Source of the DNA: Trichococcus pasteurii
Lineage (GTDB): Bacteria; Bacillota; Bacilli; Lactobacillales; Aerococcaceae
DNA length: 64,000 bases
Reading direction: 5' to 3'
Assembly: GCF_900112935.1 (NCBI RefSeq)
Contig: NZ_FONM01000002.1
Coordinates: 62,001 to 126,000 of the forward strand
Positions 18,769 through 21,713 of the stretch are shown piece after piece. Numbering within the stretch: the first letter of the stretch is position 1; every line of letters begins with the position of its first letter. A model generated the notes under the pieces. That model had not been told where the DNA came from. It searched no databases and saw only the letters and a list, made by a program, of their open reading frames with translations. Made by a program: the position numbers and the translations under genes.

Positions 18769-18799
18769 TTGACTTGGAGTTCACTTCAAGGAGTATGCT
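18769..18799 (+). promoter_or_regulatory. MerR-type promoter of the aldo/keto reductase gene
   Basis: TTGACT at 18769-18774 and TATGCT at 18794-18799 are separated by 19 bases, and the spacer holds the palindrome CTTGGAGTTCACTTCAAGG. Overlong spacers filled by a dyad are the hallmark of MerR-family activation. Two sister sites lie at 20835-20865 and 20993-21023. Confidence 0.75.
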
Positions 18800-18854
18800 A
18801 TCAGCAACATAGGAAACTGCTATGTCATCAAATTGAAACTGGAGGGATATGTTA

Positions 18855-19835
18855 ATGGATTACGTAAAATTTGGCAATACAGGTATGGATATTTCGCAGA
18901 TTTGCCTAGGGGCCATGGGATTCGGCGATCCGAACAGCGGTTTCCATAATTGGGTACTGGAAGAAGAAGAGAGCAGAAAAGTCATCAAAAGTGCGTTGGA
19001 TCTGGGGATCAATTTCTTCGATACGGCCAACATCTACTCATACGGAGCCAGTGAGAGCATCCTTGGGAAAGCTTTGAACGAGTACGCCAACCGTGATGAG
19101 ATTGTGGTGGCTACAAAAGTACATCAGAAGATGCGCCAAGCACCGAACGGAGGAGGCCTTTCCCGTAAAGCGATCCTGAGCGAAATCGATCACAGCCTGA
19201 AGCGGCTGGACATGGACTACGTCGACCTTTATATCATCCACCGCTGGGACTACAACACTCCGATCGAGGAAACGATGGAAGCCCTGCATGATGTCGTGAA
19301 ATCCGGCAAAGCCCGTTATATCGGCGCATCCGCAATGTTCGCGTGGCAATTCGCCAAAGCGCAGTCGACTGCCGAAAAACTAGGGTTGACAAAGTTCGTT
19401 TCGATGCAGAATCACTTGAATCTTTTGTACAGGGAGGAAGAGCGGGAAATGCTGCCGTTGTGCGCCGATCAAAAGATTGCCGTGACGCCTTACAGTCCAC
19501 TGGCTTCAGGCAGGCTTACAAGGGATTGGTCGGCCACTACGAAACGCTTCGAAACGGATCAAGTGGCGAAACATAAGTATGATACGACCGAGGCACAGGA
19601 CCGCGTCATTGTGGAGCGGGTTGCAGCGATTGCCAAAAAATATGGCGTTGAAAGGGTTCAGGTTGCCTTGGCTTGGCTACTGCAAAAAGATCAAGTCGTT
19701 GCTCCGATCATCGGGGCCACCAAGGAAAGCCATCTGATCAGCGCCATTTCTGCTCTTGACTTCAAACTTTCTGCGGAGGATATTCTGACTCTGGAAGAAC
19801 CATACATCCCTCATCATATTATGGGGCACAACTGA
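18855..19835 (+). CDS. Aldo/keto reductase
   Basis: An NADPH-dependent (alpha/beta)8 oxidoreductase expected to reduce aldehydes or ketones; the substrate is unknown. The 326-residue protein has the catalytic Asp and Tyr in NFFDTANIYSYGASE, the Lys in VVATKVHQK and His in YIIHRWD, plus the C-terminal cofactor site APIIGATKESHL. The ATG at 18855 has GGAGGG eight bases upstream; the ATG at 18849 is too close. Its MerR-like promoter is shared in type with the convergent SDR gene and the next NAD(P)H-binding gene, which points to a common electrophile or redox stimulus. Confidence 0.88.
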   Translation: MDYVKFGNTGMDISQICLGAMGFGDPNSGFHNWVLEEEESRKVIKSALDLGINFFDTANIYSYGASESILGKALNEYANRDEIVVATKVHQKMRQAPNGGGLSRKAILSEIDHSLKRLDMDYVDLYIIHRWDYNTPIEETMEALHDVVKSGKARYIGASAMFAWQFAKAQSTAEKLGLTKFVSMQNHLNLLYREEEREMLPLCADQKIAVTPYSPLASGRLTRDWSATTKRFETDQVAKHKYDTTEAQDRVIVERVAAIAKKYGVERVQVALAWLLQKDQVVAPIIGATKESHLISAISALDFKLSAEDILTLEEPYIPHHIMGHN

Positions 19836-19868
19836 AAAATTCGGAATTGAAAATCAATAGACAATGAA

Positions 19869-19915
19869 TAAGCCCGCTTGGATTCCTGTTGCCAGGAGTT
19901 TCAAGCGGGCTTGAT
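19869..19915. terminator. Bidirectional terminator between convergent reductase genes
   Basis: AAGCCCGCTTG pairs with CAAGCGGGCTT; a T-rich tail follows on the plus strand and an A-rich flank precedes it. Confidence 0.75.
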
Positions 19916-19970
19916 TTTCGTATCATGATGAATGTGATAATCAGTATTGCCTTATTTTAGGCCACAGGGA

Positions 19971-20804
19971 TTATTCCTTGTAGTCCGTTGAGGCTGCCAG
20001 TTCCGCTTGCGTCCGGAAATCGGCTAAGCGGTTCTCAAGCGTAGAAATGGTGCTGGCCAGCGCTTGCGAACCAAGCACCATGCGAAGCGGTGCCGGTGTG
20101 ATATCCACGCTTTCGATGATTCGTTTTGCCATCTCCGCAGGATTTCCGGGTGCCAGTACCTTTGTTGAATCAAGCATCGCAAGAAAGCTGTGCGCTGGAT
20201 TGCCGTCGTACTCAGGCATCAGTTCAGCGACTTGCGCGCTGCCGTAGCGGAATTCAGTCCGTGCTCCGCCAGGCTCTACAATGGTTACGCCGATATTGAA
20301 GGGTCCCACTTCCTGAGCGACGGATTCGCAAAAACCTTCGATCCCGAATTTCGTGGCATGGTACATGGAATTGCCCGGGAAAGCGACTTGTCCGCCATAG
20401 GAAGAGATTTGGATGATGCGGCCGTGACCTTGTTTGCGTAAGAACGGAAGGGCGGAGCGGATCATCTGGATGGATCCGGTCAAATTGGTTGCGATGATGA
20501 GATCCACTTGCTCATCGCTCAACTCCTCAGCCGCGCCGAACAGCCCGTAGCCAGCATTATTGATGATGACATCGATTTCTCCATGTTTTTCAAAAGATTC
20601 CTTCACCACCTGATGGACAGCTGAGGTATCTGTCACATCAAGGATCTGACAATCGAACAGCGTCGGGTACTCCGCAATCAAATCGGAAATTTTAGCTTTA
20701 TTACGCACCGTTCCGATCACCTTGTCGCCTTTGTCCAGCAACTGTCTTGTCAGTTCGTAGCCGAAGCCACTGCTTACCCCTGTAATCATCCATATTTTGC
20801 TCAT
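19971..20804 (-). CDS. Short-chain dehydrogenase/reductase
   Basis: A classical SDR oxidoreductase of 277 residues, substrate unknown. It has the cofactor motif GVSSGFG near the N-terminus, NNAGYG, the catalytic Ser in IQISSYGG and Tyr/Lys in YHATKFG. The start is the ATG whose complement is at 20802-20804, with GGAGGT eight bases upstream; an ATG at 20819 would place that site inside the gene. It converges with the aldo/keto reductase and has its own 19-bp-spacer promoter. Confidence 0.88.
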   Translation of the reverse strand: MSKIWMITGVSSGFGYELTRQLLDKGDKVIGTVRNKAKISDLIAEYPTLFDCQILDVTDTSAVHQVVKESFEKHGEIDVIINNAGYGLFGAAEELSDEQVDLIIATNLTGSIQMIRSALPFLRKQGHGRIIQISSYGGQVAFPGNSMYHATKFGIEGFCESVAQEVGPFNIGVTIVEPGGARTEFRYGSAQVAELMPEYDGNPAHSFLAMLDSTKVLAPGNPAEMAKRIIESVDITPAPLRMVLGSQALASTISTLENRLADFRTQAELAASTDYKE

Positions 20805-20834
20805 CAATCTTACCTCCATTTCATTTCTGTTCTG

Positions 20835-20865
20835 ACTATAGCTCTTGGAGTGAACTCCAAGTCAA
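20835..20865 (-). promoter_or_regulatory. MerR-type promoter of the SDR gene
   Basis: Read on the minus strand, TTGACT (20860-20865) and TATAGT (20835-20840) are 19 bases apart, with CTTGGAGTTCACTCCAAG as a nearly perfect dyad between them. Same architecture as at 18769-18799. Confidence 0.8.
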
Positions 20866-20992
20866 GCGCTTTGTGTATGAAATTTGGATTAGGCTTCATT
20901 TGCTTTGATTGAGTATATTATACCGTTACGTTTCCGCATTGACTATGTAAAGGCTATGTTTTATGCCCGGAAAAAAAGATGTCTGTTCATGG

Positions 20993-21023
20993 TTGAATTT
21001 GAGTGAACTCCAAGTGATACCAT
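20993..21023 (+). promoter_or_regulatory. MerR-type promoter of the NAD(P)H-binding gene
   Basis: TTGAAT at 20993-20998, a 19-base spacer and TACCAT at 21018-21023, with TTGAGTGAACTCCAAG in the spacer. The -10 is weak, which would fit dependence on an activator. The bases between this site and 20866 hold no other clear signal. Confidence 0.65.
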
Positions 21024-21056
21024 ACTCATATCAACACGAAATATGAGGTGGAAATG

Positions 21057-21713
21057 ATGACGAAAATAGTTATTATCGGCGCAACTGGTTCAGTTGGTCG
21101 CGTAGCAAGACAGATGTTCCTTGAAAAAACCAACGATGAATTGACGCTTTTTTCACGGCGTCCGGATAGGCTCAAGCCAGTCGATTCAACGAGAGAAATT
21201 GCCGTTTCTGGCGATGTGATGAATGCATCCGAACTGGACAAAGTCATTTCGGGCCAGGATGTAGTCTTTGCATCTTTGACAGGGAACTTAGGGAAAATGG
21301 CCAGAGCGATTGTGGAATCGATGAAACGTGTTGGAGTCAATCGTTTGATATTCATTACTTCGATGGGTATCTATAACGAAATCCCGGCTTCAGTCGGCTC
21401 TTCCGGCAATCTTCGCTCCAATCCGGTATTGCAGACGTACCGTGACGCGGCTGACGTCATTGAAGCTTCCGGTCTGGATTATACGATCATCCGTCCGGGT
21501 TGGTTCGACAGCAGCAACGATACGGATTATGAAATAATAGGGTTACTAACCAAAAAAAGCAATCCGAATACCTCGCATCAGCGGGGTATTCGGATTGCTT
21601 TTATTTTTAAAAATTATTTTTCTTTGCTTTCGTTGGCATCAATCTCTTTTTTGATTCTTGGCGGGCGCGTTCCCCAATACTGGAAGAAATCGGTACGCAA
21701 TCTGCCGTTGTAG
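21057..21713 (+). pseudogene. Truncated NAD(P)H-binding (atypical SDR) gene
   Basis: The first about 163 residues match an intact NAD(P)H-binding family member: GATGSVGRVAR Rossmann motif, FITSMGIYNE, then YTIIRPGWFDSSNDTDYE. The usual C-terminal third after this is missing. From about base 21545 the frame runs through the rlmL terminator and antisense into the end of rlmL, giving a tail (SNPNTSHQRGIRIAFIFK and on) unlike any family member. Start ATG at 21057 or 21048-21054; GAGGTG precedes. Most likely a 3' deletion; whether the product folds is unknown. Confidence 0.7.
21559..21603. terminator. Terminator of the rlmL-like gene, bidirectional
   Basis: GCAATCCGAATACCTCGC pairs with GCGGGGTATTCGGATTGC. 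The minus strand continues into seven T, the plus strand into CTTTTATTTTT. Confidence 0.85.

Follow-up and report, generated by a model that had tools for sequence, protein, structure and literature searches.

MerR-type promoters of three redox genes in Trichococcus pasteurii appear to belong to a dispersed regulon with an unlinked, cysteine-free candidate regulator

The window analysed here, a stretch of 64,000 nucleotides of Trichococcus pasteurii (bases 62001-126000 of contig C31 of a 3.2-Mb draft genome), holds an aldo/keto reductase (AKR) gene, a short-chain dehydrogenase/reductase (SDR) gene and the 5' remnant of a gene for an NAD(P)H-binding protein, each preceded by its own promoter. 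The features of the locus are as follows:

18769..18799, plus strand: MerR-type promoter of the AKR gene, with -35 TTGACT (18769-18774), 19-bp spacer TGGAGTTCACTTCAAGGAG and -10 TATGCT (18794-18799)
18846..18867, no strand: site at which relatives carry a further AKR gene (BLASTN against G001, G002 and G005; G010 too)
18855..19835, plus strand: aldo/keto reductase, 326 aa (PF00248)
19971..20804, minus strand: short-chain dehydrogenase/reductase (PF00106; NF005065, 354.2 bits against a cut-off of 291)
20835..20865, minus strand: MerR-type promoter of the SDR gene, with -35 TTGACT (20865-20860), 19-bp spacer TGGAGTTCACTCCAAGAGC and -10 TATAGT (20840-20835)
20993..21023, plus strand: decayed MerR-type promoter of the NAD(P)H-binding gene, with -35 TTGAAT, 19-bp spacer TTGAGTGAACTCCAAGTGA and -10 TACCAT
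21048..21535, plus strand: 5' remnant of the NAD(P)H-binding gene (PF13460)
21535..21553, no strand: deletion junction (BLASTN against G001, G002 and G005)

All three 19-bp spacers contain the dyad CTTGGAGT-N2-ACTCCAAG, in each case starting within the -35 hexamer, at its final two bases. Measured against CTTGGAGTNNACTCCAAG, the AKR-promoter dyad (18773-18790) has one mismatch, the SDR-promoter dyad (20844-20861) is a perfect match and the NAD(P)H-binding promoter dyad (20997-21014), which lies behind a weaker -35, has two. The window promoters agree with the definition of MerR-type promoters in the part of the source consulted, a -35/-10 spacer of 19-20 bp with a dyad inside it (PMC9909328). 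The dyad centre, read off the sites, lies 7 bp from the -35 box, within the rule of 7-8 bp from the 3' end of the -35 that is given for metal-sensing MerR proteins in the passages seen of PMC5045206, where a 7-bp centre distance is also used for 21-bp MerR-family sites. At up to two mismatches the dyad occurs three times in the window against 0.01 expected, none of 100 dinucleotide shuffles gave three, and the scan of the window returned no further place within four mismatches. The preliminary description of this DNA had reported these three promoters, named the three genes and noted that no MerR gene lies nearby; the direct reading and the counts bear out the first of these points, the PF00248, PF00106 and PF13460 matches the second, and the third extends to the whole of contig C31, on which a MerR gene is ruled out by the placement of all nine MerR_1 matches of the genome on other contigs.

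The same trio of sites is found at this locus in four other Trichococcus genomes (G001, G002, G005 and G010), and the AKR-promoter site is orthologous in these four and in G007, G008 and G009. In an alignment of the SDR/NAD(P)H-binding intergenic region from the window genome and the four relatives with the full trio, all 16 columns of the SDR dyad are invariant, as against 61 of the 116 columns between the two sites. The NAD(P)H-binding site is invariant (16/16) with a perfect dyad in the four relatives, present with one mismatch in G006 and decayed in the window genome, where the consensus -35 and part of one half-site are gone. The excess over expectation, together with this conservation, excludes a chance origin of the window dyads.

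The gene behind the decayed site was described beforehand as truncated, which comparison confirms: G001, G002, G005 and G006 have a version of 203-205 aa, and the open frame of the remnant continues to 21713 through sequence that is not common to the relatives' gene. At 21535-21553 the window genome lacks the end of the gene plus the sequence beyond, where G001 extends for about 1.8 kb further, a stretch that contains the 3' end of the gene, a frame related to AKRs and another of 363 aa, and where an AKR-like gene of 332 aa stands in G005 and G002. G010, too, has a broken NAD(P)H-binding gene, disrupted by another event, and its promoter is intact. Promoters may erode once their gene is cut, with the window genome as one case; erosion after gene breakage as a rule is rejected on the counter-case of G010. 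Behind the broken gene of G010 we observe an unrelated 388-aa frame (L116, 7600-9308), which resembles a TnpB-type transposon protein.

Between promoter and AKR, G001, G002, G005 and G010 have an additional AKR gene, called at 291 aa and spanning about 0.9 kb in G001, which is absent from the window genome, G007, G008 and G009. Because the last three lack it too, we claim no deletion in the window genome: either loss here or gain there may account for the difference. A dehydrogenase-like frame also lies close to the locus in relatives. Retention of the targets is uneven: the SDR is broken in G007, G008 and G009, which retain the AKR with its site, and of 295 genomes of the order six gave an SDR match at 1e-90. 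The locus is decaying in several Trichococcus genomes, and in the window genome the third gene is shortened and its promoter weakened.

Scanning the whole genome with CTTGGAGTNNACTCCAAG at up to three mismatches yielded 16 places, compared with three for the reversed pattern used as control. Thirteen of them are promoter-like with a 19-bp spacer, including all ten at up to two mismatches, and three lie in coding sequence, so that the wide occurrence outside promoters that would have spoken against the preliminary description is not seen. By contig, the places and the genes behind them are:

C31, three places, at most two mismatches: AKR, SDR and NAD(P)H-binding genes of the window
C30, at most two mismatches: AKR (290 aa)
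C18, at most two mismatches: SDR, with a weak -35 (TTCCCT)
C19, two divergent places, at most two mismatches: AKR and CMD-MerR operon
C21, one mismatch: MerR (MerR1)
C30, at most two mismatches: DUF4440/SnoaL-like protein
C30, at most two mismatches: NAD(P)H-binding protein
C30, three mismatches, promoter-like: MerR adjoining an AKR
C30 (L025, C30:49050), three mismatches, promoter-like: histidine phosphatase
C41, three mismatches, promoter-like: SDR, with a weak -35 (TTGCTG)
C29, C31:394381 and C37, three mismatches each: in coding frames

A weak -35 is confined to two of the 13 promoter-like places (C18 and C41). The sites of the C21 and C30 MerR genes lie under longer opposite-strand open frames, which we took as spurious, and on C41 the SDR frame as called covers the site; we took its true start to be an ATG downstream of the -10. 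The likely targets of the regulon are AKRs, SDRs, NAD(P)H-binding proteins, CMD, DUF4440 and three MerR genes. A small, possibly cyclophilin-like frame, called at 122-177 aa, stands behind the dyad in G001, G007 and G004 (L028, L035 and L051) and is likely a further member; the names given to this frame, to the histidine phosphatase and to the SDRs on C18 and C41 come from reading the sequence. Histidine phosphatases occur elsewhere too: in G006 (C31, L180) a related gene stands behind dyads and beside a cysteine-bearing MerR, and another precedes the AKR on C26 (L172).

Three of the nine MerR proteins have the dyad in their own or operon promoter, namely those on C21 (MerR1, 131 aa; one mismatch), C19 (118 aa; two mismatches) and C30 (152 aa; three mismatches), which supplies the MerR gene with a matching site that the preliminary description had proposed to look for. 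MerR genes overlapped by longer frames were omitted in picking open reading frames, and those of the window genome (L005, L006, L009, L010 and L011) were read separately. The helix-turn-helix of MerR1 matches PF13411 with 65.5 bits (cut-off 21.6) and PF00376 with 58.1 (28.2). Its nearest named relatives come from Trichococcus spp. (87-99% identity) and one contig labelled Sedimentibacter, and the dyad is found in the promoter of MerR1 itself in eight named relatives (L057-L064). On the contig labelled Sedimentibacter sp. SX930 (L058), the MerR shares 97% identity with its Trichococcus counterpart and has the same neighbours, so the label looks wrong. Across 30 MerR1 loci of the order, five of them from Trichococcus with the window genome among these, TTGA plus the dyad at up to three mismatches is present at 27 and lacking at three, as against 0 of 150 shuffled copies that kept two-base blocks only. 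Within the genus, MerR1 is present at no less than 87% identity in 11 of 13 genomes, the exceptions being G006 (estimated complete) and G011 (half a genome).

The operator itself is widely kept. A 22-base pattern of -35 and dyad has matches in 12 of the 13 Trichococcus genomes, compared with none in any of the 13 for the reversed control; the sole genome without it, G011, is 51% complete, and G012 has MerR1 with its own site and no other exact pattern match. Among the 295 genomes of the order, the dyad occurs in 31 of the 46 with MerR1 (a listed match at 61% identity or more) and in 25 of the 249 without it, counts uncorrected for kinship; the dyad is thus not specific to MerR1. Of 68 dyad places in the order, 39 precede an AKR match or adjoin a MerR match and 29 do neither among the matches listed, these being selected rows of AKR and MerR matches, with the MerR list reaching to E of about 3e-28. 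The notion of MerR1 as exclusive owner of the dyad is weakened by these co-occurrence and place counts, and by G006, which keeps sites without a detectable MerR1.

Outside Trichococcus, MerR1 is physically linked to the genes found in the window. In Enterococcaceae, an orthologue of MerR1 stands beside orthologues of the window AKR and SDR behind the dyad (0-3 mismatches). In four Enterococcus loci (L070-L073) the dyad (1-2 mismatches) is followed by an AKR that shares 75-77% identity with that of the window, by MerR1 (62-65%) and by a frame of 174-199 aa, which in two of the four weakly matches (26-27%) the C30 NAD(P)H-binding protein. The fullest cluster, in G038 (Enterococcaceae), places within 5 kb a DUF4440/SnoaL protein (67% identity), an SDR (72%) with its own dyad at three mismatches, MerR1 (67%), the dyad, CMD (75%), an AKR (81%), an NAD(P)H-binding protein (61%) and a second MerR. 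At four named Listeria loci the dyad precedes another SDR, 29-31% identical to that of the window, with MerR1 after it, and in Listeriaceae genomes such as G058 the dyad precedes an AKR, with MerR1 on another contig. We took family f3 as Enterococcaceae, since its AKR is identical in G247 and E. gallinarum and G224 matches Enterococcus sp. 5H, and family f7 as Listeriaceae, since G081 matches L. portnoyi. In two Enterococcaceae clusters (L106, 7814-8152, and L107, 7751-8089) we also observe a second, shorter MerR of 112 aa without the sensor cysteine discussed below.

The AKR gives the same picture from the other side. Among 17 AKR loci outside Trichococcus at 76% identity or above (L140-L156), the dyad precedes the gene in 15 and MerR1 adjoins it in 11; no such dyad was found at the AKR loci L154 and L155. 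In a midpoint-rooted tree, from which L139 was left out by choice and L151 because of its GTG start, the window AKR shares a clade with those Enterococcaceae AKRs that are linked to MerR1, as well as with some unlinked ones, and the Trichococcus paralogues on C26, C39 and C19 fall outside it. Because of this linkage to AKR and SDR orthologues, MerR1 is the best candidate regulator of the window genes.

The preliminary description had pointed to the electrophile-sensing NmlR/AdhR branch of the MerR family, in which one conserved cysteine is needed for the response to formaldehyde, according to the text seen of PMC4776306. MerR1 resembles NmlR of H. influenzae and AdhR/YraB of B. subtilis in its profile-based subfamily and in the size of the regulator (about 120-130 aa), and the AdhR regulon contains a CMD gene (yraC), as is found here (same portion of PMC4776306). 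The NmlR equivalog NF041849 is the best-scoring NCBIfam family for the C21, C19 and C30 proteins, all of which fall below its cut-off of 175 bits (161.1, 115.5 and 98.1, respectively). The sensor column (Cys54 in H. influenzae, Cys52 in B. subtilis), however, is Gln in MerR1, and the cysteine is absent from this column in all 44 alignment rows at 61% identity or higher (37 Q, 4 H, 2 K, 1 Y), PDB 3gp4 included; 43 of these 44 trimmed rows have no cysteine at all. Five rows at 51-54% identity have Cys, and of the 14 at 31-49% four have Cys and ten another residue. The alignment comprised 68 distinct trimmed rows (from 102 extracted) and two PDB fragments, five of the 70 being another kind of MerR or not MerR (21-23% identity). 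The C19 type, represented by three relatives (L125-L127), has Glu in the same column. The likely targets, AKR, SDR and NAD(P)H-binding genes, also set this system apart from NmlR/AdhR. Because the MerR1 clade lacks the sensor cysteine, thiol sensing by MerR1 is not supported by the sequences, and the earlier pointer to the NmlR/AdhR branch is not supported for this candidate.

The best PDB match of MerR1 is 3gp4 of Listeria monocytogenes, 67% identical over aligned rows and with the same cysteine-free site, whose locus name LMOf2365_2715 is given in the part consulted of PMC5045206; the literature search returned this structure entry and no functional study of the protein. A further comparable system is the NmlR regulon of lactic acid bacteria: NmlR is named, in a table and in the section on stress, among the reconstructed stress regulons of Lactobacillales (PMC3616900). 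A search of open-access literature at the level of abstracts turned up no account of a cysteine-free NmlR-like regulon, nor of the present operator in Trichococcus.

Could the dyads be a repeated element or a coincidence without regulatory role? The motif is short and three of its 16 places lie in coding sequence, yet all 13 promoter-like places have a -10-like hexamer at 19-bp spacing, and the dyad is conserved while adjacent sequence diverges. With C41 left out, the 12 remaining promoter-like places share 79% pairwise identity on average in the dyad, compared with 27% in the upstream and 32% in the downstream flanks, and all 12 have a -10 that fits TAnnnT. Unrelated flanks exclude a repeated element, and we regard an origin of this kind as extremely improbable. 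A thiol-based electrophile response through a cysteine-bearing MerR of the NmlR/AdhR type would draw on the two genes on C14 (L006 and L009, about 3 kb apart), both of which encode an IKCMR motif, and would fit the CMD gene of the AdhR regulon of B. subtilis (PMC4776306, in the part seen). The 19-bp promoter-like sites beside the C14 genes carry a different, CTTAA-type dyad, however, and the genome scan found no CTTGGAGT dyad at either locus, which makes control of the window by these proteins improbable.

A closer competitor is the C19 MerR, encoded in the CMD-MerR operon beside another AKR. The dyad stands in both the operon promoter and the divergent AKR promoter, and G006 (estimated 100% complete in 50 contigs) keeps the SDR and NAD(P)H-binding sites and has a C19-type MerR, while MerR1 was not found in that genome. 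Against this protein as the regulator in place of MerR1, the C19 type reaches at least 73% identity in nine of the 13 Trichococcus genomes only (at this level it is missing in G005, 63% complete, in G007, where a fragment remains, and in G011 and G012) and does not exceed 56% outside the genus (295 genomes of the order, E 1e-25), where in Enterococcaceae dyad, AKR and SDR lie beside MerR1. G007 retains mere remnants of C19 MerR and CMD, yet has dyads before the AKR, the small frame and a C19-type AKR. We therefore consider it unlikely that the C19 MerR acts instead of MerR1. The simplest reading of the sequences is that both probably recognise the same operator, since two near-complete relatives have no intact C19 MerR and one has no MerR1, G007 and G006 keeping dyads in the respective absence of each.

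Taken together, sequence and comparison indicate a real dispersed regulon of the MerR type, and we think it rather likely that the three window sites are operators of a MerR-family regulator, most likely MerR1, probably shared with the C19 MerR, that senses by other means than a thiol. A MerR-family dimer would bind inside the over-long 19-bp promoters and, once activated, would untwist the spacer so that RNA polymerase can use the promoter. The regulon would consist of the three window sites and about ten further promoters scattered over the Trichococcus genome. MerR1, unlinked on C21 and with the dyad in its own promoter, is a well-supported candidate that probably shares these sites with its paralogue from the CMD-MerR operon. 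As it has no cysteine, MerR1 would most likely bind its signal, a small molecule that is reactive or redox-linked, non-covalently rather than respond by thiol modification. The initial proposal that one unlinked MerR protein controls a dispersed regulon thus stands as to the MerR-type promoters, the scattered oxidoreductase genes and the unlinked regulator; that it is one protein is less certain, given the same operator at the C19 MerR and the lack of MerR1 in G006.

More tentatively, we suggest that a cysteine-free, NmlR-like branch of MerR proteins in Trichococcus, Enterococcus and Listeria may govern carbonyl-reducing enzymes through an intact metabolite or cofactor-like ligand, and that Trichococcus may have dispersed a regulon which is clustered in some Enterococcaceae, with its operators kept and two paralogous MerR proteins sharing them. 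Three odd promoters thereby lead to a regulon open to testing, for which a candidate regulator can be named and a relative of solved structure, 67% identical to that candidate, is available (3gp4); the regulon is clustered in one lineage and dispersed in another with a nearly unchanged operator. If MerR1 works without cysteine, it would represent a second sensing mode within the NmlR-like group, and the inducer of the AKR and SDR genes in its Enterococcaceae and Listeria relatives would be findable by a screen with one reporter.
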